Positions 15,581 through 36,948 of a stretch of DNA of 38,322 nt are shown one piece after another. Position 1 is the stretch's first letter; each line of letters starts with the position of its first letter. The translations under genes were made by a program, and so were the position numbers. The stretch lies in contig JAILHF010000045.1 of the NCBI GenBank assembly GCA_024696005.1, forward strand, positions 1 through 38,322. Reading direction: 5' to 3'. The stretch is from Lachnospiraceae bacterium (GTDB lineage Bacteria; Bacillota; Clostridia; Lachnospirales; Lachnospiraceae). A model generated the notes under the pieces. It was not told where the DNA came from, ran no database searches, and saw nothing but the letters and a program-made list of their open reading frames with translations.

Positions 15581-16360
15581 ATGAAGGTTGTGATACTGGC
15601 CGGCGGATACGGCACACGCATCAGCGAGGAAAGCCATTTAAAACCGAAGCCGATGATCGAGATCGGCGGGAAACCCATACTCTGGCATATCATGAAAGAG
15701 TATTCCTACCACGGCTTTAACGATTTCATCATCTGTGCGGGATATAAGCAGCAGGTGATCAAAGAATGGTTTGCAAACTATTATCTCCACAATTCGGACG
15801 TGACCTTTGATTTTACCGACGGGGGAAGGATGGAGGTACATGCCAACGTGGCGGAGCCCTGGAAGGTCACGATCGTGGATACGGGACTGGATACCATGAC
15901 GGGAGGCCGCATCAAGCGGATCCGCCCCTATGTGGGAGACGAGCCGTTTTTCATGACCTACGGGGACGGCGTGAGCGATCTTGATATCGGAAAGCTTCTC
16001 GAGTATCACCGTGAAAAAGGAAAGATCGCAACACTTACGGCTGTGGCGATCGGCCAGCGTTTCGGCGTGCTGGACATCGAGGAAGAGAGCAGCATCGTAA
16101 GCAGCTTTCGTGAAAAGGATGTGGAGGATTCTTCGCGCATCAATGTGGGCTACATGGTATTTGAACCGGCCATTTTTGACTACATTGACGGGGATGAAAC
16201 GGTTCTGGAAAAAGATACCTTAAACCGCCTTGCCCAAGAGGGGCAGCTGCAGGCGTACCGTTACGACGGTTATTGGGGCTGCATGGACACAAAGCGAGAG
16301 ATGGAAAAGCTCGATAAGATGGTTCGGGAAAAAAATGCGCCTTGGATGAAATGGGAGTGA
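15581..16360 (+). CDS. rfbF: Glucose-1-phosphate cytidylyltransferase
   Basis: 259 aa, the usual RfbF length. It joins CTP and glucose-1-phosphate to CDP-glucose, the entry step to CDP-6-deoxy and CDP-3,6-dideoxy sugars. The N-terminal MKVVILAGGYGTRISEESHLKPKPMIEIGGKPILWHIMK is the nucleotidyltransferase signature with the RfbF-type ISEES. YGDGVSDLDI carries the metal-binding Asp, and GYWGCMDTKREME is the conserved C-terminal end. The RBS lies inside the end of cinA, and no promoter fits in the 4-base gap, so it is read with the core operon. Its partners rfbH and rfbG lie at the far end of the locus, 11-13 kb away. Confidence 0.92.
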   Translation: MKVVILAGGYGTRISEESHLKPKPMIEIGGKPILWHIMKEYSYHGFNDFIICAGYKQQVIKEWFANYYLHNSDVTFDFTDGGRMEVHANVAEPWKVTIVDTGLDTMTGGRIKRIRPYVGDEPFFMTYGDGVSDLDIGKLLEYHREKGKIATLTAVAIGQRFGVLDIEEESSIVSSFREKDVEDSSRINVGYMVFEPAIFDYIDGDETVLEKDTLNRLAQEGQLQAYRYDGYWGCMDTKREMEKLDKMVREKNAPWMKWE

Positions 16361-16367
16361 GCGATCT

Positions 16368-17996
16368 ATGCGTACGATCAGCCTTTTGGACTGTACCCTG
16401 CGGGACGGCGGTTATCTGAATGACTGGAATTTCGGCCACCAGCACCTCATGAGCATATACGGACGTCTGGTGGATTCCGGCGTGGATATCGTGGAGATCG
16501 GTTTTCTGGATGAAAGAAGACCCTTTGATGTAAACCGCAGCATCATGCCGGATGAAGAATGTGCCGGCAGGATCTGGGGCGGAGTGAAACGCAAGGCCCC
16601 CATGACTGTTGGCATGATCGATTACGGCACCTGCGGCCTTTCGCATCTGAGACCGCAGAAGGAGAGCTTTCTGGACGGAATCCGCGTGATCTTCAAGAAG
16701 GAGCGGAGCGCGGAGGCCATGGATTTCTGCGCCGGCGTAAAGGAGCTTGGCTATAAAGTCTTTTCACAGCTGGTATCCGTTACCGCATATGAGGATGAGG
16801 AACTGCGCGCCATAGCCGAACGCGCCAATCAGGTGAAGCCTTATGCCCTGTCCATGGTGGATACGTACGGTCTGCTGGATCCCGAACAGCTGATTCATAT
16901 CTTTTCGATCCTCGATGAAACGCTGGATCCGTCGATCCGCATCGGCTTTCATGCCCATAACAACATGCAGCTTGCCTTCGCGAATTCCCTTGCATTTTTG
17001 AAACATGAAACACAGCGTTCCCTGATCGTTGACGGAACGATCTTCGGCATGGGAAAGAGCGCCGGAAATGCCCCGCTGGAGCTGCTCATGGATCACATGA
17101 ACGCCTGCTGCGGGAAAAACTACGAACTTGCCGCTGTCCTGGAGGCACTGGAAGAGAGTATCCTGGAATTCAGGACACGCTTTGTATGGGGCTATCAGCT
17201 GCCGTTTTTCCTTTCGGCCAGAAACCGCTGTCATCCGGCCTATGTGAACCTTTACCGGAACAAGGAGGAGCTCTCCGTGGCGGGGCTGGACCGCATGCTT
17301 TCGGGGATCGAGCCAGCGGAAAAGAAGCTGCTCTATGACAAGGAGCTGGCGGAGGAACATTATAAGGAGTATCTCACCGGCGAAGGCGATGATGAGAAAG
17401 CTTACGCCGGGCTGAAAAAACGTTTTGAAAACAAAGCGCTTCTTCTGGTCGGGCCCGGGAAAAACATCCGCCTGCAGAAGGATGCGGTAAAGGAATATGT
17501 GGAAAAGAAAAAACCGCTGGTCATATCGGTGAATTATCTGCCGGAGGATCTGCATTGTGATTATGTGCTGGCGACCAAGACGAACCGTTACCAGCAGATG
17601 CTCGAAAAGCTCCAGACCATGGGAGAGGAATGCTGCTGTGTCATCGCGACCGAAAACGTGGAGTGCCTGCACGGGCATGAAGTGATAAGGCTGCAGCGGG
17701 AGCCGTTGCTTGAGCGGGAGGAACGTTTTTGCGACAATTCGTTTCTGATGCTGCTCAGGATCCTGAAACGGATCGGTGTGACAGAGGCTGCCTGTGCGGG
17801 ATTTGACGGGTATTCACGTGTGGAGGAGAATTACTTCAATCCGCAGATGGAATACGTATTTGTCCGGGAAGAAGCGGAACGGATGAACCGTCACATGCGG
17901 GAAGCGATCACCGGAGAGTTTGCATCCATCCGCCTTGATTTCATCACGTATTCCAGGTATACCGAGGTGGAAGATACGGATCGCGCCGGGTTTTAA
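16368..17996 (+). CDS. HMGL-type aldolase fused to a C-terminal domain of unknown function
   Basis: 542 aa. Residues 1-300 are a DRE-TIM/HMG-CoA-lyase-like barrel: LLDCTLRDGG at the N-terminus, GFHAHNN (metal-binding His) near residue 200 and IFGMGKSAGN after it, like 4-hydroxy-2-oxovalerate aldolases. Residues about 350-540 start LLVGPGKNIRLQKDAV and continue VISVNYLPEDLHCDYVLATKTNRYQQM. This looks like a Rossmann-type domain faintly resembling DUF115/6-HMPK-like proteins, but I cannot assign it. The ThDP enzyme follows 23 bases later. I infer that the pair makes or consumes a 2-keto acid linked to a sugar nucleotide. The reaction is unproven. Confidence 0.65.
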   Translation: MRTISLLDCTLRDGGYLNDWNFGHQHLMSIYGRLVDSGVDIVEIGFLDERRPFDVNRSIMPDEECAGRIWGGVKRKAPMTVGMIDYGTCGLSHLRPQKESFLDGIRVIFKKERSAEAMDFCAGVKELGYKVFSQLVSVTAYEDEELRAIAERANQVKPYALSMVDTYGLLDPEQLIHIFSILDETLDPSIRIGFHAHNNMQLAFANSLAFLKHETQRSLIVDGTIFGMGKSAGNAPLELLMDHMNACCGKNYELAAVLEALEESILEFRTRFVWGYQLPFFLSARNRCHPAYVNLYRNKEELSVAGLDRMLSGIEPAEKKLLYDKELAEEHYKEYLTGEGDDEKAYAGLKKRFENKALLLVGPGKNIRLQKDAVKEYVEKKKPLVISVNYLPEDLHCDYVLATKTNRYQQMLEKLQTMGEECCCVIATENVECLHGHEVIRLQREPLLEREERFCDNSFLMLLRILKRIGVTEAACAGFDGYSRVEENYFNPQMEYVFVREEAERMNRHMREAITGEFASIRLDFITYSRYTEVEDTDRAGF

Positions 17997-18019
17997 TATT
18001 TTTCGGAGAGTGAAAGATC

Positions 18020-19822
18020 ATGGAACAGAAACTGGCTGAATACATTGCCGACTTTATCGCGGCGCACCGGGTAGAGCATGTTTTTACCGTTACCGGCGGC
18101 GGTGCGATGCATCTCAACGATGCATTCGGACATCACAAAGCACTTACGTGCATTTATGATCACCATGAACAGGCCTGCGCCATTGCGGCGGAAGGCTATG
18201 CGAGGCTTTCCGGAAAGATCGCGGCTGTCTGCGTGACCAGCGGACCCGGAGGGACGAATGCCATCACCGGCGTGCTGGGAGGCTGGCAGGATTCCATTCC
18301 GATGTTCGTGATCTCCGGGCAGGTGAAGCGTGCCACCACGACCTGGTCCACGGAGGTGCCGCTCAGGCAGCTGGGGGATCAGGAATACCAGATCATCGAG
18401 AGCGTGCGCCCCATGACGAAGTATGCCGTGATGGTGACCGATCCGAAAGAGATACGCTATCATCTGGAAAAAGCCTGGTTCCTTGCCATGAACGGAAGAC
18501 CGGGCCCCGTCTGGCTGGACATCCCTCTGGATGTGCAGGCGGCGCGGATCGAGACAGAGGAGCTGAAGGGCTTTTCCGCTGAGGAAGAAGGCCTTTCGGA
18601 AAAACCGGAATTTGACGAAAGCGTGCTCGGGGAGATCCTGGAGCGGATCGCAGCGGCAAAACGTCCGCTGATCCTTGCGGGAACCGGCATCAATGTGGCC
18701 GGGGCGCGGAAGGAATTCCTCGATTGTGTCGGGAAGCTGGGGATACCGGTCGTGACCGCCTGGAATGCCCATGATCTGCTGCCGTCCGATCATCCGCTTT
18801 TTGTCGGAAAACCCGGAACGGTCGGTACGCGGGGCGGAAATTTCGTGGCGCAGAGCTGTGATCTGCTTCTGGTACTCGGCTGCCGCATGAACATACGAAT
18901 GATCAGCTATAATGACCACCAGTTCGCGAAGAATGCCTGCAAGATCGTGGTGGACATCGATGAGAACGAACTGAAGAAACCCACGGTGGATGTGGATCTT
19001 CCGGTCCATGCCGACGTGAAGGATTTCCTGCGTGCTCTGAGCGCACGAAGCCTCGCCGGGGCAACGGCAGAACAGAAGGATTGGCTGTCCCGCTGCCGGG
19101 AGATCGACGCGAAGTTCCCGGCCTGTCTGCCGGAGTATTATGAAACTTCGAAGCCCATGAACCCTTATGCCTTCTTTAACGAGCTGTTTGAAAGCATGGA
19201 AGAGGGGGATGTGACGGTCTGCGGAAACGGTTCCGCCTGCGTGATGGGCTTTCAGACGGCAAAGATCCGGAAGGATCAGCGCCTCTTTACCAATTCCGGC
19301 TGTGCGGCCATGGGCTACGGTTTCCCGGCAGCCATCGGTGCCTGTGTATGCAGGAAGGGAGAGCGTGTGTTGTGCGTGGACGGGGACGGCAGCTTCCAGA
19401 TGAACCTGCAGGAGCTGCAGACCGTGGTCTACAACCGGTTGAACCTGAAGATCTTTTATCTGAACAATAACGGATACCATTCCATAAGGCAGACCCAGAG
19501 CAATCTGTTTGCGGGACGTCCCATGGTGGGTGTATGTGACGGGAACGGCCTGAGCTTCCCGGATGCGGAAAAGATCGCGAATGCTTACGGCATCCCCTAC
19601 GTGCGGATCGATGACATCCGGACGGCAGCGGAGAAGATCCGGAAAGTCCTTGATTCGGAAGGGCCGGTATTCTGTGAAGCGGTGGTGGATCCGGCGCAGA
19701 ATTTCGCACCGAAGCTTTCTTCGAGAGTGCTGGAGGATGGCAGCATCGTTTCGGCGGAGCTGGACGACATGGCGCCTTTCCTGCCCCGGGAAGAAGTGGA
19801 GCAGATACGGAACTACCTGTAA
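18020..19822 (+). CDS. ThDP-dependent enzyme, acetolactate synthase-like (YerE-like candidate)
   Basis: 600 aa with the three-domain layout of acetohydroxyacid synthases. The N-terminal catalytic Glu50 is in DHHEQACAIAAEGYAR, followed by TSGPGGTNAITG, and the C-terminal ThDP/Mg site is GDGSFQMN (G455-D456-G457) about 30 residues before NNNGY. Ordinary IlvB sits next to ilvN or ilvC. This gene instead sits among CDP-sugar genes, as does YerE, which decarboxylates pyruvate and adds the two-carbon unit to the keto carbon of a CDP-3,6-dideoxy-4-ketohexose in yersiniose synthesis. The sugar role is inferred from context. An aldolase-derived 2-keto acid could be the donor instead of pyruvate. Confidence 0.7.
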   Translation: MEQKLAEYIADFIAAHRVEHVFTVTGGGAMHLNDAFGHHKALTCIYDHHEQACAIAAEGYARLSGKIAAVCVTSGPGGTNAITGVLGGWQDSIPMFVISGQVKRATTTWSTEVPLRQLGDQEYQIIESVRPMTKYAVMVTDPKEIRYHLEKAWFLAMNGRPGPVWLDIPLDVQAARIETEELKGFSAEEEGLSEKPEFDESVLGEILERIAAAKRPLILAGTGINVAGARKEFLDCVGKLGIPVVTAWNAHDLLPSDHPLFVGKPGTVGTRGGNFVAQSCDLLLVLGCRMNIRMISYNDHQFAKNACKIVVDIDENELKKPTVDVDLPVHADVKDFLRALSARSLAGATAEQKDWLSRCREIDAKFPACLPEYYETSKPMNPYAFFNELFESMEEGDVTVCGNGSACVMGFQTAKIRKDQRLFTNSGCAAMGYGFPAAIGACVCRKGERVLCVDGDGSFQMNLQELQTVVYNRLNLKIFYLNNNGYHSIRQTQSNLFAGRPMVGVCDGNGLSFPDAEKIANAYGIPYVRIDDIRTAAEKIRKVLDSEGPVFCEAVVDPAQNFAPKLSSRVLEDGSIVSAELDDMAPFLPREEVEQIRNYL

Positions 19823-19839
19823 GGCGGGAAGGAGAAAAA

Positions 19840-19917
19840 ATGCGTGATCGGTATCCTTTGAACGGTGTCAGCATTGCTGCACTGCATGATGCGACGGGGA
19901 AGCGCCAAGCGGGATGA
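19840..19917 (+). CDS. 25-codon ORF overlapping the flippase start
   Basis: ATG 19840 follows a strong RBS (GGAAGGAG, 19827-19834) and encodes MRDRYPLNGVSIAALHDATGK plus four residues, ending in TGA 19915-19917. That stop overlaps the ATG of the flippase gene (ATGA). It could be a leader peptide for translational coupling or the start of a gene truncated by deletion. No family is recognised. Confidence 0.4.
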   Translation: MRDRYPLNGVSIAALHDATGKRQAG

Positions 19918-21359
19918 AGCTTTTGCGGAAATATGATGTTCTTCCGCTTGCCGTAAGGGCGTCTGTCTGGTATATCGTCTGCAATTTCATACAAAAAGGG
20001 ATCTCCGTGATCACGGTCCCGGTCTTTTCGAGGCTGCTGTCGACCGCCGAATACGGAGATCTTAACGTTTATAATTCCTGGTTTACCATCCTGTCCATCC
20101 TGGTTGCCCTGGGCATGGCAAACGGGATGCACATGCAGGGGCTGGTGAAATTCAGCGACAGGCGGGATGCTTTCACCTCGGCTCTGCAGGGACTCACGCT
20201 CACGCTCGTTCTGGGCTGGGCTCTTTTGTATTACCCCCTCCGGACTTTCTGGAACGGTCTGCTTACGATGTCAACCCTGCAGATGAGCGCGATGTTGATC
20301 AGTGTCTGGACCGGTGCCGTTTTCGGCCTGTGGGCGAATTCACAGAGGGTGGAATATCGTTACCGGGCCCTGCTCGTTGTTACGGTCATCTGCTCCGTGG
20401 TAAAGCCCGTGGCAGAGATCTTTGCGGTCCTCCACTTTGAAGACAGGGTGGGCGCAAAGGTCATGGCTACGGCTCTTGTGGAACTGGCGGCATACGGCTG
20501 GCTGTTTGTTGCGCAGATCCGGAAGGGAAAGGTATTCTTTTCGGGAGAGGTCTGGAAGTACGCGCTGGGTTTCTGCATCCCCCTTCTGCCGCATTATCTC
20601 TCCCAGACCCTGCTGAATCAGGCGGACCGCATCATGATCAGGGATCTGCTGGGGCAGGAGGAAGCCGGGATCTACGGACTTGCTTATTCGGTTTCGCTGG
20701 TGCTTTCCATCCTGGTCACGGCTCTGGGACAGAGCCTGTCGCCCTGGCTCTATGAAAGGATCAAGCAGAAGAAAGAAAAGGAGATCGGAGGGATCGTCTA
20801 TTTCCTGATGCTGTTTCTGGCGGCACTCAGCCTCCTGCTCATTTTGCTTGCGCCGGAAGTGGTGGCGGTCTTTGCGCCGCCGCGGTATGCGGACGGCATC
20901 CGCTGCATCCCGCCGGTCACGATCGGCATCTATTTTACCTTCTGTTACTCCGTATATGCGAAGTTCCCGTTCTATTACGAGAAAAAGGCAGCGATCGCCG
21001 CAGCGACTCTGATCTGTGCCCTTCTGAACATCATCACGAACAGGATCTTTATCCCCCTCTTCGGATACGCGGCAGCAGGATATACGACCATGGGCTGCTA
21101 TATCCTCTATTCCTGCTTCTATTATCTGATCATGAGAAGGATCTGCCGGAAGGAGTGCGACGGTAGGTATCCGCTGGAAACGGGAAAGCTTGTCCTGATC
21201 CAGGGGAGCCTGGTAGTGCTTGGCATGCTATTTTCGCTCACCTACGAGCTCCCGCTGATACGATATGCGCTGGCTCTGGGGCTGCTGCTTTTGCTGCTGT
21301 GGAAACGTTCTGCCATCCTGTCGGCGTTCCGGACCCTTCGGGGAAAGCGCGGAGATTAG
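19914..21359 (+). CDS. Polysaccharide repeat-unit flippase (Wzx/MATE-like)
   Basis: 481 aa with about 12-14 membrane helices. The N-terminal SVWYIVCNFIQKGISVITVPVFSRLLSTAEYGDLNVYNSW is the typical start of Wzx-type polysaccharide exporters (PF01943/PF13440 class). Residue pattern QADRIMIRDLLGQEEAGIYGLAYSVS is also characteristic. Its likely role is moving undecaprenyl-linked repeat units across the membrane. No separate RBS of quality lies before its own ATG, so translation probably depends on the 25-codon ORF. No Wzy polymerase is evident in the window. Confidence 0.88.
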   Translation: MKLLRKYDVLPLAVRASVWYIVCNFIQKGISVITVPVFSRLLSTAEYGDLNVYNSWFTILSILVALGMANGMHMQGLVKFSDRRDAFTSALQGLTLTLVLGWALLYYPLRTFWNGLLTMSTLQMSAMLISVWTGAVFGLWANSQRVEYRYRALLVVTVICSVVKPVAEIFAVLHFEDRVGAKVMATALVELAAYGWLFVAQIRKGKVFFSGEVWKYALGFCIPLLPHYLSQTLLNQADRIMIRDLLGQEEAGIYGLAYSVSLVLSILVTALGQSLSPWLYERIKQKKEKEIGGIVYFLMLFLAALSLLLILLAPEVVAVFAPPRYADGIRCIPPVTIGIYFTFCYSVYAKFPFYYEKKAAIAAATLICALLNIITNRIFIPLFGYAAAGYTTMGCYILYSCFYYLIMRRICRKECDGRYPLETGKLVLIQGSLVVLGMLFSLTYELPLIRYALALGLLLLLLWKRSAILSAFRTLRGKRGD

Positions 21360-21370
21360 GGGCCGGGCGT

Positions 21371-21399
21371 TTGCAGATTTATGTCAACTATGCTACAAT
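21371..21399 (+). promoter_or_regulatory. Internal promoter of the LicD/cytidylyltransferase group
   Basis: TTGCAG (21371-21376), a 17-base spacer and TACAAT (21394-21399), just after the flippase stop. Transcription would start near 21406 and read the licD gene at 21433. Confidence 0.6.
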
Positions 21400-21432
21400 G
21401 GGACGAAGAAAAGGAAGCGGAGAGAAAAGAAC

Positions 21433-22287
21433 GTGACGGATTCGGCAAAAGAAAAGATAACGGGCTATCTTGAGGAGATCCAGGAGATCAATTTCCGCCT
21501 GCTGTGCGAGATCGACCGGATCTGCACGGAGAGAGGCATACGCTATTATCTTCTGGCGGGGACGCTTCTGGGAGCGGTCCGGCACAAGGATTTCATTCCC
21601 TGGGACGATGATGTGGACATCGTTTTTGTGAGAAGGGATTACGAGCGTTTTCTGCGGATCTTCCGGGAGGAAGCGACCGGGCCTTATCAGCTGGTCGATT
21701 ACCATGACTATCCCGAATTCTTTGACTTCATATGCAGGATCGTTGACAGCAGCGTGAAGATACGTAATCAGAAGGCAGATGAGGATTATTACGGCGGCAG
21801 ATATTCCCATCCGGGGGTTGATCTGTTTGTTTTTGATGACGCGGCGCCTTTTCTGGGGGCACGGCTTTTTGCTCTCCGGGTTGTGTACGCCATGGCGATG
21901 GGGCACAGGCAGCGGGTGGAATACGAAAAATACAGCGGCCTTCAGAAGCTGGGAGCCTATGTGCTTCCGGCCATCGGGCGTTTCATTCCCCTCCGGGTGC
22001 TGGCGAGGCTGTACGATGCCATCTCTTCCGCAGGGAACGGCGGATCCGACAGCTGGTTCATCTCCAACGAACAGCAAAGACCGCCTTATTGGGGAAAGCT
22101 TTACCGCAAGGCCTGGTTTGCCAGAAGGGTACGGGGACAGATCCGCGACAGGTTTTTCCCCTGTGCCAAGGGTGCGCCTTCGCAGCTTCGGATGATCTAC
22201 GGCGATTACATGGCGCTTCCGCCGGAGGATAAACGTTATCCGCAGCATTTTGCTGCGATGGAACTGGAACGGGAGAAAGAAGGATGA
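21433..22287 (+). CDS. LicD family phosphotransferase (first copy)
   Basis: 284 aa from GTG 21433 (GGAG at 21419-21422 upstream, and the internal promoter rules out the longer frame starting inside the flippase gene). The LicD signature [25 protein letters not shown] is present near residue 40. LicD proteins transfer phosphocholine, phosphoethanolamine or other phospho-polyols from CDP precursors to cell-surface glycans, and are nucleotidyltransferase-fold enzymes. Its 3' end overlaps the next gene by 4 bases, coupling it to a CDP-polyol synthetase. Confidence 0.85.
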
Positions 22288-22700
22288 AAAGAGTCATCAC
22301 CTACGGAACCTTCGACCTGCTGCATTATGGCCATATCGCTCTTCTGAAGCGGGCCAAGGAGCTGGGCGATTATCTGATCGTGGCGCTTTCGACGGATGAA
22401 TTCAACAGCGTCGAAAAGAACAAGCACTGCTATTTTTCTTATGAGCAGAGAAAGAGCCTTCTGGAAGCGATACGCTATGTCGATCTGGTCATCCCGGAAG
22501 AAAGCTGGGAGCAGAAGGTCTCCGATGCGCACGAATATCACATCGACACCTTTGTGATCGGGGATGACTGGAAGGGAAAGTTTGATTTCCTGAAGGACGA
22601 AGGCGTGGAAGTGGTTTATCTGAGCCGGACGCCCGAGATCAGCTCGACCCAGATCAAAAAGGCTTTTTCGGACGGAAAAGGAAAGGGGAACTGTTCATGA
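22284..22700 (+). CDS. tagD: Glycerol-3-phosphate cytidylyltransferase-like (TagD)
   Basis: 138 aa. [27 protein letters not shown] carries the HxGH motif of cytidylyltransferases, and EISSTQIK matches the second CTP-binding signature. WKGKFDFL and the length match TagD/GCT, which makes CDP-glycerol. CDP-glycerol would serve as donor for a LicD or teichoic-acid-type transferase. It overlaps both neighbours by 4 bases. Confidence 0.85.
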
Positions 22701-23173
22701 TCATAGGATATACGACAGGGGTTTTTGATCTTTTTCATATCGGTCACCTGAATCTTCTGAAAAACGCAAAAGGGATGTGTGACCGTCTCATCGTCGGTGT
22801 GACCATCGATGAACTTGTTTCCTACAAAGGGAAGCATGCCCTGATCCCGTTTGAAGACCGGATCGAGATCGTCCGTTCCTGCAGATATGTTGACGCGGCC
22901 GTTCCGCAGTATGACATGGATAAGCTGAAGGCCTGTAAAGCGCTGCAGGCCAATATCCTTTTTGTGGGGGATGACTGGTACGGCACGGACAAATGGGCGC
23001 AGTATGAGAAAGAGTTTGCGCAGGAAGGGATAAAGATCGTCTATTTCCCTTACACGAAGGGAGTATCCTCGACAAGGATCACCGAAGCGCTGAAAGCAAC
23101 GAGAGGCTGGACCACGGGGGCGTCTCTGCGGCCTGCGGATCATATCAACGTGAATGAGGAAGAAGAGGGCTGA
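22697..23173 (+). CDS. Second cytidylyltransferase-family protein (substrate uncertain)
   Basis: 158 aa with [18 protein letters not shown] (HxGH) and GVSSTRI, so it is an active-looking nucleotidyltransferase of the TagD/PCT group. Residues between the motifs ([22 protein letters not shown]) differ clearly from the adjacent TagD copy, so it probably uses another phospho-alcohol. A tail of about 20 acidic/polar residues follows the catalytic fold. The pairing with a second licD 33 bases downstream suggests a dedicated donor. Confidence 0.75.
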
Positions 23174-23205
23174 CGCACGTTCGTCAGCGGAGGAAACGGA
23201 TCGGG

Positions 23206-24057
23206 ATGACGGAATTGCAAAAATGCATCCTCAGCATTTTTACTGAGGTGAAGAAATTCTGCGAAGAAAACGATATCTCTTATTATGCCATCGGGGGAAC
23301 CTGCCTGGGCGCGGTGCGTCACGGAGGCTTCATCCCCTGGGATGACGATCTGGATATCGCGATCCCCGTCGAGCAGATGGAACGCTTTGTCAGGCTCGCA
23401 AAAAAGAAGCTCCCGGAGCATCTGGAACTGGTGAGTTATCATACGCATCCCCATTTTCCGAGAATGTTTGTCCGGGTGACGGATAAGAGGACCACCTATG
23501 TGCAGACGTACATGATGGCTTATCCGGACGAATACCACGGGGTATTTATCGATGTGATGCCGATGACGGGAAAACCGGAAGGCCTGCGGGGGCGGCTCTT
23601 TGCGCATGAGGCGGCAGTGCTCGATTATGTGACGGGACTGGAATTCAGTACATTCCGGCAGAACCGCAAGCTCCGCGAAAGGCTGTCCTGGCTGGCGGTG
23701 CATGCCCTGTTTTTCCTGAACGGGCATATGGTTTTGCGTTTTTGGGAGAAGGAACTGAAAAAACATCCGGTAAAGGGAGCGAAGGAGATCATCTACGCGT
23801 GGAACGCAAAGTCGCGTTACCGCAGTTTCCCGGCTGAACTGTTTGAACCGTCGGCGGAACGGAAGTTTGAGGAGGGCACGATCCGCTGTCCCGGGGATAC
23901 GGACCGTTATCTTAAGATCGAATTCGGTGATTACATGAAGCTCCCGCCGCCCGAAAAGCAGGTGGGACACCATGACGGACACATCAGTCTGCGCGTACCC
24001 TGCCGGAAGACGGCGGAAACAAGAAAACGGCGGATCGCCGCAAGGGGCCGCAGATGA
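23206..24057 (+). CDS. LicD family phosphotransferase (second copy)
   Basis: 283 aa with YYAIGGTCLGAVRHGGFIPWDDDLDIAIP, the LicD nucleotidyltransferase signature, and FGDYMKLPPPEKQVGHH at the C-terminal end, characteristic of the family. The RBS GGAGG precedes ATG by about 9 bases. It diverges from the first LicD outside the motif, so this is not a recent duplication. Likely attaches a phosphorylated alcohol to the glycan made by this locus. Confidence 0.85.
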   Translation: MTELQKCILSIFTEVKKFCEENDISYYAIGGTCLGAVRHGGFIPWDDDLDIAIPVEQMERFVRLAKKKLPEHLELVSYHTHPHFPRMFVRVTDKRTTYVQTYMMAYPDEYHGVFIDVMPMTGKPEGLRGRLFAHEAAVLDYVTGLEFSTFRQNRKLRERLSWLAVHALFFLNGHMVLRFWEKELKKHPVKGAKEIIYAWNAKSRYRSFPAELFEPSAERKFEEGTIRCPGDTDRYLKIEFGDYMKLPPPEKQVGHHDGHISLRVPCRKTAETRKRRIAARGRR

Positions 24058-24105
24058 ACCTGAGAGTAAAAGGAAACAGAAAGAAAGCACAGGGGCTTTG
24101 GAAAC

Positions 24106-24987
24106 ATGGGTGAGCTCAGAATGAAACTCAGGCGCCTTCGCCACGACTGGATGTGCGAACACAGGCCGGAAGAGGAAACGATAAAGTATTACCGGGCGGT
24201 ATTCGGCTGTGATCCGGATTTTACGGATCCGAAGACGATCAACGAGAAGATCCATTATCTGAAACTGAAGGCATATGCTTCGGACCCGGTGGTGGCGGAA
24301 TGTGCCGACAAGTATGCGGTACGGGAATATCTGAAAAAAAGGGGGATGGAGGACATTCTCCCCGGCCTGCTTTTTTCCTGCGAACGTGCCGGGGACGTTC
24401 CCTGGGATGCGCTGCCGGAGCGCTTTGTGCTCAAATGCAACCACGGATGCGGCTACAACATCATCTGCCGGGACAAGAGCAGCCTGGATATCAAAGAAGC
24501 CGAAAAAAAGCTTAAGCGCTGGATGAAGGAAGATTACTGGAAGGAGTTCTGCGAGCTCCATTACAGAACGATCAAAAAAAGGATCATCGGCGAGGAATAT
24601 CTCGGAGATGATATCGAAACGTATAAGTTTTACTGTTTTAACGGAGTGCCCAGACTCGTCTATGTGATGACGACCGAGGGAGAGAAGCACTATATCGACT
24701 ACTTTGACCCGGACTGGAAGCATCTGGATGTTTACCGCGTCGACCGTCCCGGGGTTCCGGATCCCGCCATGATCGAAAGACCGCCGCATCTTAACGAGAT
24801 GCTTGATATCGCGGCTGCGCTTTCAAAGCCGTTCCCGCTGGTCAGGGTGGATCTCTATGACCTGGAAAAGGTATATTTCTCCGAACTGACATTCACACCG
24901 GCCGGAGGTTTTCTGCGGCTCGATCCGCCCGAAACGGAACGGGAATGGGGAGACTGGCTGGACCTGGGCAGCGCCGGAAGGCATTGA
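24106..24987 (+). CDS. TupA-like ATP-grasp protein
   Basis: 293 aa. The region TINEKIHYLKLKAY, then ADKYAVREYL, FVLKCNHGCGYNIICRDKSS and EEYLGDDIETYKFYCFNGVPRLVYV is the pattern of the TupA-like ATP-grasp family (PF14305), found in capsule and teichuronopeptide loci, where it probably forms an amide or ester bond to the glycan. It ends FSELTFTPAGGFLRLDPP, as the family usually does. ATG 24121 is an alternative start with GGGTGAG nearby. A promoter overlaps its stop codon. Confidence 0.8.
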   Translation: MGELRMKLRRLRHDWMCEHRPEEETIKYYRAVFGCDPDFTDPKTINEKIHYLKLKAYASDPVVAECADKYAVREYLKKRGMEDILPGLLFSCERAGDVPWDALPERFVLKCNHGCGYNIICRDKSSLDIKEAEKKLKRWMKEDYWKEFCELHYRTIKKRIIGEEYLGDDIETYKFYCFNGVPRLVYVMTTEGEKHYIDYFDPDWKHLDVYRVDRPGVPDPAMIERPPHLNEMLDIAAALSKPFPLVRVDLYDLEKVYFSELTFTPAGGFLRLDPPETEREWGDWLDLGSAGRH

Positions 24988-25012
24988 TTTTTCGCCGGGC
25001 CTGGGGTATAAT
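24984..25012 (+). promoter_or_regulatory. Internal promoter of the GT2-to-rfbG group
   Basis: TTGATT (24984-24989, overlapping the stop codon of the previous gene), a 17-base spacer and TATAAT (25007-25012). It would drive the downstream six-gene group from about 25019. Confidence 0.7.
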
Positions 25013-25062
25013 TTTTCAGTAACTTTTTATGTCTACCAGCAGATTAAAAGAGGACGGATGAT

Positions 25063-26022
25063 TTGAAGACCATCAGTATCATGATCCCGTGCTACAACGA
25101 GATCGATAATGTAGAGGCCATGGCGGATGCGGTCCGGGCAATGCTCAAAAAGGATCTGTCCTCTTATGACTATGAGCTTGTCTTTATCGACAACGCTTCG
25201 ACGGACGGCACCCGGGAAAAGCTGGAAGAGATCTGCGCGAAGGATAAAAAGGTAAAGGCGATCTTTAACGTGACCAATTTCGGGCAGTTCAATTCGCCCT
25301 TCCACGGACTGTGCCAGACCACGGGGGACTGCACGGTCTCCATGTGCTGCGATTTCCAGGACCCTGTGGAGCTGGTGCCGCAGCTGGTGGCGGAGTGGGA
25401 GAAGGGGCACAAGGTGGTGAGCTGCATCAAGAGCAGCAGCAAGGAAAACCCGCTGATCTATCTTTTCCGCACCATTTACTACAAGATGATCAAGAACATG
25501 TCCGACGTGAAGATGATCGAGCATTTCACGGGCTTCGGGCTTTACGACCGTTCCTTTATCCGCCTGCTCAGGGAGCTGGACGATCCCATCCCTTTCCTGC
25601 GCGGGATCGTGGCGGAATACGGCGGCGGCTTCAACATGAAGGAAGTGCATTACGAGCAGGCCAAGCGCAGGGCCGGAAAGACGCACAACAACTTCTACAG
25701 CCTGTACGATGCCGCGATGCTGTCCTTCACCTCCTATACCAAGGTGGGGCTGCGTCTGGCAACGTTTCTGGGCTTCTTTACGAGTGCGGTAAGCTTCGTG
25801 ATCGCCATCGTGTATCTGATCCTGAAGCTGCTCCACTGGAATTCCATGCGCATGGGCATGGCACCTGTCGTGCTGGGTGTGTTCCTTCTCGGGGGCATCC
25901 AGATCTTTTTCATCGGACTGATCGGTGAATATATCCTGAACATCAATACCCGCGTGATCCACAGGCCTGTGGTGGTGGAGGAGCGCAGGATCAACTTTGA
26001 CGAGGCAGAAGATGGGAAATAA
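25063..26022 (+). CDS. Family 2 glycosyltransferase with C-terminal membrane helices
   Basis: 319 aa starting at TTG 25063 (the nearby ATG 25058 runs into a stop after one codon; AAGAGGACGG lies in front). The GT-A fold carries ISIMIPCYNEIDNVE, FIDNASTDGT and CCDFQDPVELVP (DxD-like), followed by two C-terminal helices (LATFLGFFTSAVSFVIAIVYLIL and VLGVFLLGGIQIFFIGLIGEYIL). This is the layout of GtrB/DPM1-like enzymes that transfer sugar to undecaprenyl phosphate. It overlaps the next gene by 11 bases. Confidence 0.87.
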   Translation: MKTISIMIPCYNEIDNVEAMADAVRAMLKKDLSSYDYELVFIDNASTDGTREKLEEICAKDKKVKAIFNVTNFGQFNSPFHGLCQTTGDCTVSMCCDFQDPVELVPQLVAEWEKGHKVVSCIKSSSKENPLIYLFRTIYYKMIKNMSDVKMIEHFTGFGLYDRSFIRLLRELDDPIPFLRGIVAEYGGGFNMKEVHYEQAKRRAGKTHNNFYSLYDAAMLSFTSYTKVGLRLATFLGFFTSAVSFVIAIVYLILKLLHWNSMRMGMAPVVLGVFLLGGIQIFFIGLIGEYILNINTRVIHRPVVVEERRINFDEAEDGK

Positions 26023-26935
26023 GCGCGCGATCGTGACCGGGGCAGCCGGCTTTGCAGGGATCCATCTGATAAAGCATCTGCTGGAGCACGGATATACGGT
26101 GCTGGCAGTGTTGCGTCCTGAATCGGAACACAACGAGCGGATCTGCGAGCTGCAGAAGACGTATCCGGAAGACAGACTGCGCGGGCTGGCCGTGGACCGC
26201 TCCGACGCGCCGCTCCTTCGGAGTGTCGGCTTCCGCGGTGAGGGCTATGATCTGTTCTTTGACCTGGCCTGGGGCGGCGGCAGGAACGACCTTTCGGCCC
26301 AGCGCGGAAACATCACGCACATGCTGGATGCGGTGGAGGCAGCGGCTTTTCTGGGCTGCCGGCGTTTCATCGGGATCGGCTCCCAGGCGGAATACGGCGT
26401 ACAGAAGGATATTATCACCGAAGAGAGCGATACCGAGCCCTTCAGCGCTTATGGCGCAGCCAAGCTGGCGGCCTGTCATCTGAGCCGCATTTCCGCGAAG
26501 CAGGCGGGGATGGAATGGATCTGGGGAAGGATCTTTTCCCTTACGGGGGAATACGAACCCTCGGGGCGCATGCTCCCGGATCTGGTGGATCTGCTGATGC
26601 GGGGCGAAACGCCGGAGCTTTCCTCCTGCAGGCAGAACTGGGATTATCTGGACGCGTCGGATGCGGCGGAGGCGATGATCGCTCTGGGCGAGCGCGGAAA
26701 AAGCGGAGAGATCTATAACATCGCCAACGGTGCTTACCGGAAGCTTAGGGAATTTACGGAGGAAGCAAAGAGCATTGTGGCACCGGAAGCCGAGATCCGT
26801 TACGGCGCGGATCCGGAGCCTTTTGTCAGCCTTGCGCCGTCCGTTGACAAGATCATGAACGATACCGGCTGGAAACCGCAGACCGCTTTTGCGGAAACTG
26901 TGGGGATCTTAAAAAGGAGGAATACCGATGGCTAA
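26012..26935 (+). CDS. NAD-dependent epimerase/dehydratase, probable CDP-sugar ketoreductase
   Basis: 307 aa from ATG 26012. Extended SDR: the Rossmann motif GAAGFAGIH at the N-terminus, GIGSQAEYG with the catalytic Ser, and YGAAK with the catalytic Tyr/Lys. In the context of rfbF/rfbG/rfbH, the gap it would fill is C4-ketoreduction or epimerisation of a CDP-dideoxy or branched sugar (as RfbJ or YerF do). That assignment is inference; sequence alone gives only the SDR family. Its start lies inside the GT2 gene and its end overlaps the NeuB-like gene by 8 bases. Confidence 0.75.
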   Translation: MGNKRAIVTGAAGFAGIHLIKHLLEHGYTVLAVLRPESEHNERICELQKTYPEDRLRGLAVDRSDAPLLRSVGFRGEGYDLFFDLAWGGGRNDLSAQRGNITHMLDAVEAAAFLGCRRFIGIGSQAEYGVQKDIITEESDTEPFSAYGAAKLAACHLSRISAKQAGMEWIWGRIFSLTGEYEPSGRMLPDLVDLLMRGETPELSSCRQNWDYLDASDAAEAMIALGERGKSGEIYNIANGAYRKLREFTEEAKSIVAPEAEIRYGADPEPFVSLAPSVDKIMNDTGWKPQTAFAETVGILKRRNTDG

Positions 26936-27809
26936 TCAGAAGATCATGCTGGGAGATTTTGAGGTGGGGGATAATCCGGTCCCCTATTTTATCGCCGAGA
27001 TCGGCATCAATCACAACGGAGACCTGCAGATCGCGAAAAAACTGATCGATGCGGCTTTCTGCACGGGCTGGCATTGTGTGAAGTTTCAGAAGCGCACACC
27101 CGATATCGCCGTTCCCGAAGCGCAGAAGAGCGTGATGCGGGATACGCCCTGGGGACAGATGACCTATCTGGATTACAAGAAGCATGTGGAGTTCGAAAAG
27201 GACGAATACGATTATATCGACCGCTACTGCGCGGAGAAGCCCATAGCCTGGACAGCCAGCCCCTGGGATCTGCCCAGCCTGGATTTCCTGATGGGATACG
27301 ACCTGCCCTTCATCAAGGTGGCATCGGCCGGAAACGGCAATGAGGAACTGCTCAAAGCGGCTTGCCGCTGCGGAAAGCCCATCATCATGTCGGACGGGAT
27401 GAGCACGCAGGAGGAACTGGACAAGGCCGTTTCGATCCTGGAGGATCACAGCAACGGCGATTACATCCTGCTGCATACCAATTCCACCTATCCGGCTCCT
27501 GTGGATGCGCTGAACCTTTCCTACATCAACACCCTGAAAGAGCGTTACCATTGCATCGTGGGCTACAGCGGTCATGAGCAGAACCTGGAGCCGACGGTGG
27601 TGGCGGCCACCCTGGGAGCAAAGGTGATCGAGCGTCATGTGACCCTTTCCCATGAGCTGTGGGGAACGGACCAGAAGGCGAGCCTCGAGATCAACGCCAT
27701 GTACATGCTCTATCGCCGTTGTGCGGATATCAGCCGCATGATGGGTGACGGGACAAAGACGCTGGATGAAGAGGAGCGCAAGGTCCGCAAAAAGCTGAAA
27801 GGGGATTGA
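26928..27809 (+). CDS. NeuB-like synthase lacking the SAF domain
   Basis: 293 aa. Conserved NeuB core: FIAEIGINHNGDLQIAKKLIDAA, VKFQKR, WTASPWDLPSLDFL, IIMSDGMST, LLHTNSTYPAP, GYSGHE and GAKVIERHVTL. These build the TIM barrel that condenses PEP with a sugar aldehyde (ManNAc in sialic acid synthesis). Ordinary NeuB/PseI proteins are about 340-350 aa and end in an antifreeze-like SAF domain. This protein stops at KKLKGD just after the barrel. No NeuA or NeuC is visible in the window, so sialic acid itself is doubtful. It overlaps the epimerase gene by 8 bases and sits directly before rfbH. Confidence 0.8.
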   Translation: MANQKIMLGDFEVGDNPVPYFIAEIGINHNGDLQIAKKLIDAAFCTGWHCVKFQKRTPDIAVPEAQKSVMRDTPWGQMTYLDYKKHVEFEKDEYDYIDRYCAEKPIAWTASPWDLPSLDFLMGYDLPFIKVASAGNGNEELLKAACRCGKPIIMSDGMSTQEELDKAVSILEDHSNGDYILLHTNSTYPAPVDALNLSYINTLKERYHCIVGYSGHEQNLEPTVVAATLGAKVIERHVTLSHELWGTDQKASLEINAMYMLYRRCADISRMMGDGTKTLDEEERKVRKKLKGD

Positions 27810-27811
27810 GG

Positions 27812-29170
27812 ATGGATCGGGAGATCTTTGAAGGATTGTCGGAAGCGGAAGCCAGGGCTCTGCTGGTAAGGCTTTCGGGTGATTATTGCGAAAAGTATCA
27901 CAAGCGCAGGGAGTACGAAGCCGGCGATCATATTTCCTACGGCGGACGTTTCTATGACAGGGACGACATGGAGCACCTGGTGGATGCATCCCTGGAATTC
28001 TGGCTCACGGCCGGGCACTACACCAGGGAGTTCGAAGAGAAGTTCGCGCGTTATCTGGGCGTAAAGCACTGCAGCGTTGTCAATTCCGGCTCTTCGGCCA
28101 ATCTCCTGGCGTTCATGGCACTCACCTCCCCGCTTCTGGGAGAGAGGGCGATCCGTCCCGGTGATGAGGTGATCACCGTGGCCTGCGGATTTCCGACTAC
28201 GGTCTCGCCCGTGCTGCAGTACGGGGCGGTACCGGTTTTTCTGGATGTGACGATTCCGCAATACAATATCGACGTTACGGAACTGGAGGCCGCTTACAGC
28301 GAGGGAAAGACCAAAGCGGTGATGATCGCGCATACGCTCGGCAATCCCTTTGACCTGGCTGCCGTGAAGGCGTTCTGCGACCGGCACGGCCTGTGGCTCA
28401 TTGAGGATAACTGCGATGCCCTGGGTAGTGAATACCTGCTGGACGGTGTGAGCGTAAAGACCGGGACCGCAGGCGACATCGGAACTTCCAGTTTTTATCC
28501 GCCCCATCACATGACGATGGGAGAGGGCGGAGCCGTCTACACGGACGATCCGCTCCTGCACCGCATTGTCCGCTCCCTCAGGGACTGGGGACGGGACTGC
28601 GTCTGCGAGTCCGGTCAGGACAACCGCTGCGGACACCGCTATGACGGACAGTTCGGGCTTCTTCCGGCCGGTTATGACCATAAATACGTTTATTCCCATC
28701 TGGGTTATAACCTGAAAGCGACCGACCTGCAGGCGTCCGTCGGTGTGGCGCAGCTTGCCAAGCTGGATTCCTTTACGGCGAGCCGTCGTGAGCATCACGC
28801 CGTTCTTTTCGATGGCCTGCGCGATCTGGAGGACAAGCTGATCCTGCCCGTACCCTGCGAAAACAGCAAGCCTTCCTGGTTCGGTTTCATGATCTGCTGC
28901 AGGGAAGGCGTCGACCGCACCGGGCTGGTCCGCTTCCTGGAAGGAAAGGGGATACAGACCCGCATGCTCTTTTCGGGAAATCTGACCAGGCATCCCTGCT
29001 TCGATGCCATCCGGGAAGAGGAAGGGAGCAGATACCGCATCGTCGGCAAACTGGCGAACACGGACCGCATCATGCGGGACGGCTTCTGGATCGGGGTTTA
29101 CCCCGGAATGACGGAGAAGATGCTGGACGTGATGATCGAAGAGATCCATGCGGGAGTAAAAATGCTGTAA
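27812..29170 (+). CDS. rfbH: CDP-4-keto-6-deoxy-D-glucose 3-dehydratase (E1)
   Basis: 452 aa from ATG 27812. A DegT/DnrJ/EryC1/StrS-fold PMP enzyme in which the usual PLP-binding Lys is replaced by His: SFYPPHHMTMGEGG, His232 at the Lys position. It also has the iron-sulfur ligands C-x-C-x7-C at Cys263, Cys265 and Cys273. Both are the hallmarks of RfbH/AscC, which removes the C3 hydroxyl of CDP-4-keto-6-deoxyglucose. The enzyme needs electrons from an E3 reductase (AscD/RfbI), and none is seen in the window. Only 2 bases separate its ATG from the NeuB-like stop codon. Confidence 0.92.
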   Translation: MDREIFEGLSEAEARALLVRLSGDYCEKYHKRREYEAGDHISYGGRFYDRDDMEHLVDASLEFWLTAGHYTREFEEKFARYLGVKHCSVVNSGSSANLLAFMALTSPLLGERAIRPGDEVITVACGFPTTVSPVLQYGAVPVFLDVTIPQYNIDVTELEAAYSEGKTKAVMIAHTLGNPFDLAAVKAFCDRHGLWLIEDNCDALGSEYLLDGVSVKTGTAGDIGTSSFYPPHHMTMGEGGAVYTDDPLLHRIVRSLRDWGRDCVCESGQDNRCGHRYDGQFGLLPAGYDHKYVYSHLGYNLKATDLQASVGVAQLAKLDSFTASRREHHAVLFDGLRDLEDKLILPVPCENSKPSWFGFMICCREGVDRTGLVRFLEGKGIQTRMLFSGNLTRHPCFDAIREEEGSRYRIVGKLANTDRIMRDGFWIGVYPGMTEKMLDVMIEEIHAGVKML

Positions 29171-29207
29171 AGCGCCTGCAAAGGGGCGCATGCACGGGAG
29201 AATGCAA

Positions 29208-30290
29208 ATGGACTGGAAAGGCTTTTATCGCGGAAAAAAAGTATTCCTGACCGGACATGACGGTTTCAAGGGCAGCTGGATGAGCAGGATCCTGCTGGAT
29301 CTGGGTGCCGAGGTGTACGGATATTCCCTGGAACCGCCCACGCAGCCTTCCCTTTTTGAACAGCTTGCGTTTTCGCAGGCGGAGGGGATGCATGACGGGA
29401 GAGGGGATGTGCGTGACGCAGCCCTCCTGAAACGCATGATGGAAGAGGCGCAGCCGGATGTGGTGATCCACATGGCGGCACAGCCGCTGGTACGCGCTTC
29501 TTACGAAGATCCCGTGGGGACGTTTGCAACAAACGTGATGGGAACGGTGCATCTTCTGGATGCGGTGCGCGGCTGTGAGAGCGTCCGTTCCGTTCTGAAC
29601 GTCACGACGGACAAAGTCTATCTCAATGAGGAGAAGGAAGAGGGCTACCGGGAGGACGAGAAACTCTGCGGTCATGATCCCTATTCCAATTCCAAATCCT
29701 GTTCGGAACTGGTGACCTACAGCTATGTCAGATCCTTTTTCGAAAAGCGCGGGATCGCGGTCAGCACCATGCGGGCCGGCAATGTGATCGGAGGCGGGGA
29801 TTATGCAAAGGACCGCCTGCTTCCCGATTGCGTGAGGGCCGTGGAAGCCGGGGAAGCCGTTGTGCTGCGCAATCCGGATTCCGTGCGGCCGTACCAGCAC
29901 GTGCTGGAGCCGGTCTGTGCATATCTCTGTCTGGCGGCGAGACAGGCATCGGAGCCGCTTCTTGCGGGAAATTACAACGTGGGACCCCGCATGGAGGACT
30001 GCCTGCGGACGAAGGAGATGGCGGAAATGTTCTGTGCGGAATGGAACCGTCTGGCGGCAGCTTCGGCGGGAGAGACGCAGGCACGGGTGGAATGCCGTCC
30101 TGACGGGGGGCCGCATGAAGCGAAGCTTCTTCGCCTTGACTGCAGCCTGATCAGGCAGCGCCTGGGGTGGGAGCCGAAATGGGACAGCAAAACGGCATTA
30201 AAAAAGACCGCGGAATGGGCTTTTGCGGTCCATTGCGGTCAAAGCGCAGATGCGGTCACGAAGGAGCAGATCAGGGAGTATCTCGGCTGA
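29208..30290 (+). CDS. rfbG: CDP-glucose 4,6-dehydratase
   Basis: 360 aa from ATG 29208 (GGGAG 8 bases upstream; ATGs at 29190 and 29202 are alternatives). Extended SDR with VFLTGHDGFKGSWM, MAAQPLVRASYEDP, NVTTDKVYLN and YSNSKSCSELV (catalytic Tyr/Lys region), typical of RfbG/AscB rather than dTDP-glucose dehydratases. It turns CDP-glucose into CDP-4-keto-6-deoxyglucose, the substrate of RfbH. Last plus-strand gene of the locus. Only 3 bases separate its end from the convergent GGDEF gene, and no good terminator is visible. Confidence 0.92.
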   Translation: MDWKGFYRGKKVFLTGHDGFKGSWMSRILLDLGAEVYGYSLEPPTQPSLFEQLAFSQAEGMHDGRGDVRDAALLKRMMEEAQPDVVIHMAAQPLVRASYEDPVGTFATNVMGTVHLLDAVRGCESVRSVLNVTTDKVYLNEEKEEGYREDEKLCGHDPYSNSKSCSELVTYSYVRSFFEKRGIAVSTMRAGNVIGGGDYAKDRLLPDCVRAVEAGEAVVLRNPDSVRPYQHVLEPVCAYLCLAARQASEPLLAGNYNVGPRMEDCLRTKEMAEMFCAEWNRLAAASAGETQARVECRPDGGPHEAKLLRLDCSLIRQRLGWEPKWDSKTALKKTAEWAFAVHCGQSADAVTKEQIREYLG

Positions 30291-31473: not shown

Positions 31474-31563
31474 GGATTTCTTTGGAAAGCTTACAAACAG
31501 CGGCCCGCAGCCGCCCGGCGGAATGCGGGGGACGGGCCGGAGCAGGTGAAAAAAGGGTATCAC

Positions 31564-34108: not shown

Positions 34109-34111
34109 GGA

Positions 34112-36746: not shown

Positions 36747-36773
36747 CATTTTCTTACTTTTTTTGTTTTCCCG

Positions 36774-36813
36774 CCCCGTGCCATGGCAAAAAAATGCTGG
36801 TACGGGGTTTTTT
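36774..36813 (+). terminator. Terminator of the sugar-sensing operon
   Basis: CCCCGTGCCA (36774-36783) pairs with TGGTACGGGG (36798-36807) with one G-T pair, followed by TTTTTT (36808-36813). Confidence 0.85.
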
Positions 36814-36826
36814 GGTGCGAAAAAGG

Positions 36827-36880
36827 AAACAAGAAAGTGAAGCAAATCGCAAACAACTACTAAATATGCTGTGTTAATAT
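36827..36880 (+). promoter_or_regulatory. Promoter region of the sugar importer with possible activator half-sites
   Basis: TGTTAATAT (36872-36880) is an extended -10 and no -35 box is recognisable at the proper distance. AAACAA occurs at 36827-36832 and again at 36851-36856; the second copy covers the missing -35. Direct repeats there fit an AraC-type activator such as the adjacent response regulator, but the half-sites are short and the assignment is tentative. The leader to ATG 36949 is about 60 nt and ends in GGGAGG. Confidence 0.35.
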
Positions 36881-36948
36881 GAGCACTGTAAGGAGGCGGA
36901 AAGCTTCCGTAAACCTATAACCACCATTGAAAAGGGAGGAAAGTACAA

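Follow-up and report, generated by a model that had tools for sequence, protein, structure and literature searches.

The window analysed here is positions 1 to 38,322 of contig JAILHF010000045.1 from a Lachnospiraceae bacterium of rumen or gut type, and our subject is the sugar locus at its positions 15,581 to 30,290, in which a gene for a two-domain HMGL-type aldolase precedes the gene of a thiamine diphosphate (ThDP) enzyme. We consider it probable that this locus directs the synthesis of an unusual branched sugar of the cell surface, with a hydroxy keto acid made by the aldolase being grafted by the ThDP enzyme onto a sugar activated with cytidine diphosphate (CDP). RfbF, RfbG and RfbH, as assigned by curated models, would supply CDP-4-keto-3,6-dideoxyglucose, and the aldolase would condense pyruvate with a possibly phosphorylated aldehyde to give a 3-deoxy-2-keto acid with a C4 hydroxyl. 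The ThDP enzyme, judging from its clade and from the published ErwE, would decarboxylate this acid and transfer the resulting acyl anion to the CDP sugar at its C4 ketone; a short-chain dehydrogenase/reductase (SDR) would then reduce the new ketone. We predict a 3,6-dideoxyhexose that carries a polyhydroxyalkyl branch on C4, similar in kind to erwiniose and caryophyllose, and that would go into a polymer exported by a flippase. The fused MptE/DUF115-like domain would serve the aldolase step. All genes named in a preliminary description of this locus were confirmed as open reading frames on the plus strand, at the coordinates given below.

CDP-sugar genes and the identity of the ThDP enzyme

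All three rfb products score above the equivalog cut-offs of their models: rfbF, glucose-1-phosphate cytidylyltransferase (15581..16360; TIGR02623, 366 bits, cut-off 300); rfbG, CDP-glucose 4,6-dehydratase (29190..30290; TIGR02622, 418 bits, cut-off 278); and rfbH, CDP-4-keto-6-deoxyglucose 3-dehydrase (27806..29170; NF011936, 674 bits, cut-off 423). These scores assign the three genes to a CDP-3,6-dideoxyhexose pathway and support the CDP-4-keto-3,6-dideoxyglucose chemistry originally proposed for them.

The ThDP enzyme (18020..19822) holds all three TPP_enzyme domains (PF02776, PF00205 and PF02775). Its best solved relatives are 8rph (404 bits), acetohydroxyacid synthase (AHAS) I (249 bits) and 5ahk (247 bits), the last of which we take to be PpYerE. 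PMC12188165 identifies 8rph as JanthE, a YerE-like enzyme. We built a quick tree of 99 rows, which included the genome's own two IlvB-like proteins, E. coli IlvB and 5ahk. The window enzyme, viral homologues, JanthE and the bacterial aldolase-linked ThDP enzymes, with five exceptions, formed one clade (SH-aLRT 100), and the IlvB proteins and 5ahk fell outside it. The five divergent aldolase-linked rows (loci L037, L124, L126, L127 and L129) grouped with 5ahk, a long branch whose placement in a quick tree is unsure; 5ahk, presumably a YerE, is more distant from the window enzyme than is JanthE. The window enzyme reads GDG at the motif that is CDG in JanthE.

That the ThDP enzyme is instead a biosynthetic acetohydroxyacid synthase we regard as extremely improbable. 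Its best NCBIfam match is indeed the acetolactate synthase large-subunit model, but this identity is contradicted by a TIGR00118 score of 359 bits against a cut-off of 538, by the tree, by the co-occurrence with RfbH described below, and by two separate IlvB-like genes among the only three genes of the ThDP superfamily found in the genome at E up to 0.001. IlvB was ruled out as its identity on the sub-cut-off score and the tree, so the grouping with biosynthetic IlvB that would have counted against the preliminary description did not occur. That description also likened an AHAS-like ThDP enzyme and an SDR reductase to the yersiniose set; the ThDP enzyme falls in a JanthE/YerE-like clade, and the SDR gene of the locus (25997..26935; PF01370) encodes the candidate reductase of the new ketone.

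Co-occurrence was assessed in 250 genomes of the family; the thresholds were E up to 1e-120 for RfbH, 1e-90 for the ThDP enzyme and 1e-40 for the aldolase. RfbH was present in 66 of the 72 genomes with the ThDP enzyme and in 17 of the 178 without it (Fisher p 7e-37, a guide only because the genomes are related). Aldolase matches were found in 58 of the 250; RfbH accompanied them in 25 of the 28 genomes that also had the ThDP enzyme and in 2 of the 30 that did not, the latter being near the 15 of 148 seen where both aldolase and ThDP enzyme were missing. Of 348 genomes of the phylum, 2 gave an aldolase match at E up to 1e-50, namely the window's genome and one other.

Two genomic contexts of a two-domain aldolase

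The aldolase gene (16368-17996) is separated from the ThDP gene by 23 bases. Its HMGL-type domain spans about residues 1-330 (16368..17357), and PF00682 (84 bits, on residues 116-246) is the only Pfam family found at E up to 0.001. The nearest solved chain is 3dxi, a 'putative aldolase', followed by 4-hydroxy-2-oxovalerate aldolases. R12, D13, H195 and H197, which we take to be the barrel residues that matter for the metal site and catalysis, are conserved in all 73 of 73 relatives. With the 4-hydroxy-2-oxovalerate aldolases DmpG/MhpE the protein shares the HMGL barrel and its best NCBIfam matches, but it differs in its sub-cut-off scores, a Tyr for His in the TLRDG stretch, an extra C-terminal domain and biosynthetic surroundings; DmpG identity was rejected on those scores. 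We favour reading the aldolase as an enzyme that makes 3-deoxy-2-keto acids, which here would be donors for the ThDP enzyme as in erwiniose and caryophyllose.

We compared 75 aldolases, from the window and 74 other loci; G167:C60 and the weaker matches, save G033, G039 and G000:C53, were left out of the set. Partner genes were scored up to 15 kb from the aldolase, as far as the fetched stretch reached, so contig ends limit the calls of absence. Among the 64 proteins of two-domain length (L037, at 1066 residues, stands outside this group), 31 had a ThDP gene as their only partner, 29 had only a gene for a cytidine monophosphate (CMP)-sugar synthase, KdsB- or PseF-like, 4 had both and 0 had neither. 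The CMP gene lay less than 200 bases from the aldolase in 25 of the 64, and the ThDP gene less than 800 bases in 28. As 28 of 64 fall this close although the window genome has three ThDP genes, the adjacency of aldolase and ThDP genes is more than chance would give. The co-occurrence of aldolase, ThDP gene and rfbH, proposed at the outset as a check, is seen in the 25 of 28 genomes noted above.

At least one of rfbF/G/H was found on the fetched stretch in 26 of the 38 aldolase and ThDP loci, and all three in 18. The preliminary description had staked its reading on the pair not occurring mainly apart from CDP-sugar genes, and it does not. For the 12 remaining loci, RfbH was encoded elsewhere in the genome in 7 of the 8 with a window-clade ThDP enzyme (the exception being G013) and in 0 of the 4 with a divergent one (G050, G067, G163 and G279). 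These divergent enzymes probably use other acceptors; by eye, L124 adjoins an apparent deoxythymidine diphosphate (dTDP)-sugar set.

The two contexts were compared over 38 ThDP and 35 CMP loci, 4 of which belong to both sets. SDR homologues accompanied 21 of the ThDP loci and 1 of the CMP loci, GT2 homologues 19 and 1, and Gph-like phosphatases 15 and 5, respectively; KdsC-like phosphatases were present in 0 of the 38 ThDP loci and 13 of the 35 CMP loci. Among the representatives run against curated models, the KdsB-like proteins of L092 and L076 and the KdsC-like proteins of L111 and L102 passed the cut-offs, and the PseF-like proteins of L101 and L107 fell below them. When 36 ThDP and 30 CMP labels were placed on a quick aldolase tree (nine of the 75 rows unlabelled), 5 changes of context were needed. 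One CMP row within a ThDP clade, L120, ends at a contig end, and its ThDP gene may therefore be cut off. At L076, where the barrel is 53% identical to the window's, Gph- and KdsB-like genes lie alongside; no RfbH was found in that genome at E up to 1e-60, and rfbF- and rfbG-like genes stand at its other aldolase locus, L122.

The domain fused to the aldolase (17400..17993) gave no meaningful Pfam match in the window copy. Across an alignment of 61 relatives (L086, L127 and L129 left out), an MptE-like match appeared in 8, the best at E 0.0011 and below the Pfam cut-off. A D-lyxose isomerase match in 6 of the 61 (best 6.6e-5) was set aside because the predicted fold pointed elsewhere. The best PDB matches of the domain profile were SteA-like (E 0.01) and MptE (E 0.24). 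A model built from 13 sequences (pLDDT 79, pTM 0.82) matched BFVD viral models in Foldseek with probability 1.00 and TM 0.5-0.66, several of them annotated as DUF115 or MptE-like, and matched SteA with probability 0.99; no PDB match reached E <= 0.001. A single-sequence model of the whole protein was unusable (pLDDT 35). The profile and the model suggest an MptE/DUF115-like domain. The fusion of the aldolase to a 190-residue domain directly before the ThDP gene, as first described, stands, and for the domain labelled 'unrecognised' there we propose this MptE/DUF115-like assignment.

Viral contigs provide separate copies. In L188 and L194 the domain is its own gene just before a single-domain aldolase, in L192 one gene before it, and in all three a KdsB-like gene then follows; a borderline copy precedes a 537-residue aldolase in L185. 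These stand-alone copies likewise fall below the MptE-like Pfam cut-off. That the two genes are split in one genome and fused in another argues for a joint function. The most conserved positions of the domain are alike in 30 ThDP and 29 CMP rows. Such constancy across loci that diverge after the aldolase would place the domain's role in the aldolase step rather than a later one. For the same reason a CMP-specific transferase is unlikely.

Among 132 plasmid and viral loci (L134-L265), a set with many near-duplicate contigs and, from L200 on, many weak aldolase matches, 61 paired the aldolase with one or more scored partners: 45 with a ThDP gene, 15 with a CMP gene and 1 with rfbF/G/H only; ThDP and CMP genes occurred together in 0. 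On IMG/VR viral contigs (L140, L145-L149 and others among L139-L265) the aldolase adjoins a JanthE-like ThDP gene; L145 and L146 also carry RfbH, and L149 carries RfbF, RfbH and a HAD phosphatase. Branched-sugar chemistry of this kind may therefore be encoded by phages. On a Leisingera plasmid, three genes in a row encode a 536-residue aldolase, a protein annotated as 3-deoxy-manno-octulosonate cytidylyltransferase and a HAD hydrolase; the C-terminal half of this aldolase matches the domain profile at E 8e-9. A contig classed as viral, L139 (892-4218), carries in a row a PseF-like gene, a two-domain aldolase and a PfkB-family kinase that looks to us like a 2-keto-3-deoxygluconate kinase. At L037 (6466-9666) and L134 (4846-9014), a single-domain aldolase, fused in L037 to about 700 further residues, is accompanied by RfbH and a transketolase-like pair, and at these loci an enzyme of the transketolase type may take the place of a YerE-like one.

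Alternative donors and the NeuB-family gene

Several observations weigh against an aldolase-made donor or complicate the picture. The ThDP enzyme occurs with no aldolase (E up to 1e-40) in 44 of the 72 ThDP genomes, and the pair is therefore not obligatory. The barrel falls under the curated 4-hydroxy-2-oxovalerate aldolase cut-offs (TIGR03217, 83 bits against 286; NF006049, 96 against 229), and a Tyr stands in the window, 3dxi and 64 of 73 relatives where the solved aldolases of that kind read TLRDG-x-His. No Gph- or KdsC-like phosphatase was found within 15 kb of the window aldolase. The single-domain relatives at L038, L039, L123 and L128 lack any scored partner, and plasmid relatives in Mesorhizobium, Paraburkholderia and Legionella have other surroundings. 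A NeuB-type gene in the window offers another possible source of the donor. Two CMP-transferase genes above the PF02348 cut-off lie in the genome outside the window and could serve a CMP fate.

The 44 genomes without the aldolase also favour a yersiniose-type route, in which pyruvate is the source of a two-carbon unit that the ThDP enzyme places on the CDP sugar, and the aldolase serves another part of the polymer. L268, L269 and L274, which have rfbF/G/H, SDR and GT2 genes and no aldolase or NeuB nearby, are consistent with this, as is the acceptance of pyruvate by JanthE reported in PMC12247030. However, the spacing of 23 bases here and of less than 800 bases in 28 of 64 loci, together with the CMP synthases that accompany ThDP-less aldolases, speaks against it, and we regard this route as unlikely.

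We fetched twenty stretches, one each from 19 of the 44 aldolase-free ThDP genomes and one from G195, whose aldolase is on another contig. A NeuB-cupin fusion adjoins the ThDP gene in L277 (7702-9231) and L279 (7573-9090), the latter also with a HAD phosphatase; in L278 (9005-15391) a NeuB lacking the SAF domain and a KdsC-SIS fusion lie near it; and in L276 a different HMGL protein adjoins it. The stretch on the other side of L282 in genome G142 (L312:1-8094) carries the ThDP gene, an SDR-like gene, KdsC-SIS, a SAF-less NeuB, RfbH and a partial RfbG; L312 and L278 each look like a complete ulosonate-to-ThDP set with no aldolase. On the fetched stretches of L268, L269, L271, L272, L274 and L275 no such synthase was found near the ThDP gene, and these loci may use pyruvate or an unlinked source of donor. 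The replacement of the aldolase by NeuB-type genes in some loci gives a second line of evidence toward a 3-deoxy-2-keto acid donor.

The window's NeuB-family gene (26928..27809; PF03102 over its full length), on which the preliminary description was silent, sits between the SDR gene and rfbH. It scores 231 bits on TIGR03569 against a cut-off of 400 and has no SAF match, so it does not qualify as a sialic acid synthase; it is a possible second source of a 3-deoxy-2-ulosonic acid. A phosphoenolpyruvate (PEP)-dependent NeuB-type enzyme might make the ThDP donor, with the aldolase making another ulosonic acid or acting in sequence. The window's gene and the NeuB-type genes beside aldolase-free ThDP enzymes in L277, L278, L279 and L312 are in keeping with this, but of the 75 aldolase loci the window alone has a NeuB of this type close by, and none of its eight closest relatives (61-68% identical) lies within 40 kb of a ThDP match. 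We judge this arrangement somewhat less likely again than a pyruvate donor. Among the close NeuB relatives fetched, two adjoin a KdsC-like gene and one a CMP-transferase-KdsC fusion; this last, at L304 (5279-6460), lies beside a NeuB 68% identical to the window's.

The products of the aldolase, and of NeuB, could also be CMP-activated by enzymes encoded elsewhere, the ThDP step being independent. Sister aldolases have only a CMP synthase in 29 of 64 loci, and one of the two PF02348 genes elsewhere in the genome is near another NeuB-like gene. Against this, the window has no CMP synthase near the aldolase, and the mutual exclusivity of ThDP and CMP contexts argues for coupling to the ThDP enzyme here, which makes this explanation improbable. 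The NeuB-type replacements and the CMP synthases beside sister aldolases both lend weight to the earlier idea of a non-pyruvate 2-keto acid as the aldolase's product and the putative donor.

Neighbouring genes, related systems and significance

The ThDP gene is followed by a Wzx-type flippase gene (19914..21359; PF01943), a first LicD-family gene (21265..22287; PF04991) whose real start is probably downstream of the flippase end, two PF01467 cytidylyltransferase genes (22284..22700 and 22697..23173), a second LicD-family gene (23206..24057; PF04991), a TupA-like ATP-grasp gene (24106..24987; PF14305) and a GT2 glycosyltransferase gene (25063..26022; PF00535). From the functions that we presume for the LicD, PF01467 and TupA-like genes, the segment 21265-24987 suggests phospho-substituents on the polymer too. 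Genes with RimO-, PgsA- and CinA-type domains lie upstream of the locus. After it, at 31546-38142, are a periplasmic sugar-binding protein, a histidine kinase and an AraC-type response regulator, beyond which we noted by eye two more sugar-binding-like frames. The sole relative from a contig search with a single query sequence, L026 (Lachnospiraceae metagenome-assembled genome Tb.RUG.225), keeps the order rfbF-aldolase-ThDP with proteins 87, 86 and 85% identical, and its upstream genes look by eye like the window's three. That stretch ends 10 kb past the aldolase, before the expected positions of rfbG, rfbH and neuB.

Erwiniose, a sugar of Pectobacterium atrosepticum, provides a close parallel. 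Its enzyme ErwE is likewise a YerE-like ThDP enzyme, with CDP-4-keto-3,6-dideoxyglucose as acceptor and, as we presume for the window enzyme, a hydroxy-2-keto acid as donor; the window differs in its Lachnospiraceae host and in the MptE-like domain joined to its aldolase. According to PMC12247030, ErwE joins hydroxy-2-keto acids (4-hydroxy-2-oxo acids) to that acceptor to give erwiniose and does not use pyruvate, a coupling demonstrated with a substrate analogue. As a YerE-like enzyme using such acids is already published, this kind of ThDP chemistry is not new. Caryophyllose (Mycobacterium marinum, MMAR_2332), given in PMC5706390 as 3,6-dideoxy-4-C-(1,3,4,5-tetrahydroxyhexyl)-hexopyranose, is likened here by sugar structure, as a 3,6-dideoxyhexose with a matching type of C4 branch. 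The branches of both sugars would fit a decarboxylated 3-deoxy-2-keto acid with a 4-hydroxyl.

Yersiniose A (YerE, Yersinia pseudotuberculosis) shares the acceptor, the kind of ThDP enzyme and the reductase, but YerE uses pyruvate and yields a two-carbon branch (PMC12247030), whereas in the window the ThDP gene comes paired with an aldolase. JanthE of Janthinobacterium, in the same clade, is the closest characterised relative of the window enzyme; PMC12188165 reports that it takes 4-hydroxy-2-oxovalerate with benzaldehyde and states that its physiological substrates are unknown. The pathways to 3-deoxy-D-manno-octulosonic acid (Kdo) and nonulosonic acids (KdsA/NeuB, KdsC, KdsB/NeuA) find a parallel in the sister aldolases that adjoin KdsC- and KdsB/PseF-like genes, but the synthase would be an HMGL-type aldolase rather than a PEP-dependent one, and the window aldolase has no CMP synthase near it.

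A literature search, as far as its top-ranked matches go, gave nothing on point on this aldolase, whether next to CMP transferases, within branched-sugar loci or together with MptE-like proteins, which does not establish absence from print. New here are the proposed assignment of the C-terminal domain, the split of the aldolases into ThDP-only and CMP-only contexts, and the NeuB-type stand-ins for the aldolase. In related bacteria and in some phages, a keto-acid-making enzyme of this kind also seems to serve another class of products, acidic sugars. More tentatively, at a little under even chances in our estimate, HMGL-type aldolases with an MptE-like partner, fused or, in some viral contigs, separate, would be unrecognised PEP-independent 3-deoxy-2-ulosonic acid synthases whose products have two exchangeable fates: CMP activation, or grafting by a JanthE-like ThDP enzyme onto a CDP-4-keto-3,6-dideoxyhexose. 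Such modules would occur in Lachnospiraceae, a marine alphaproteobacterium and viral contigs. Our reading of the locus proposes a genetic source for the hydroxy keto acid donors that long-branch YerE-like enzymes need, and offers a hypothesis for the natural donor of JanthE. If true, one would expect to find long-branched sugars in Lachnospiraceae and, in bacteria and phages, a second route to ulosonic acids that is independent of PEP.

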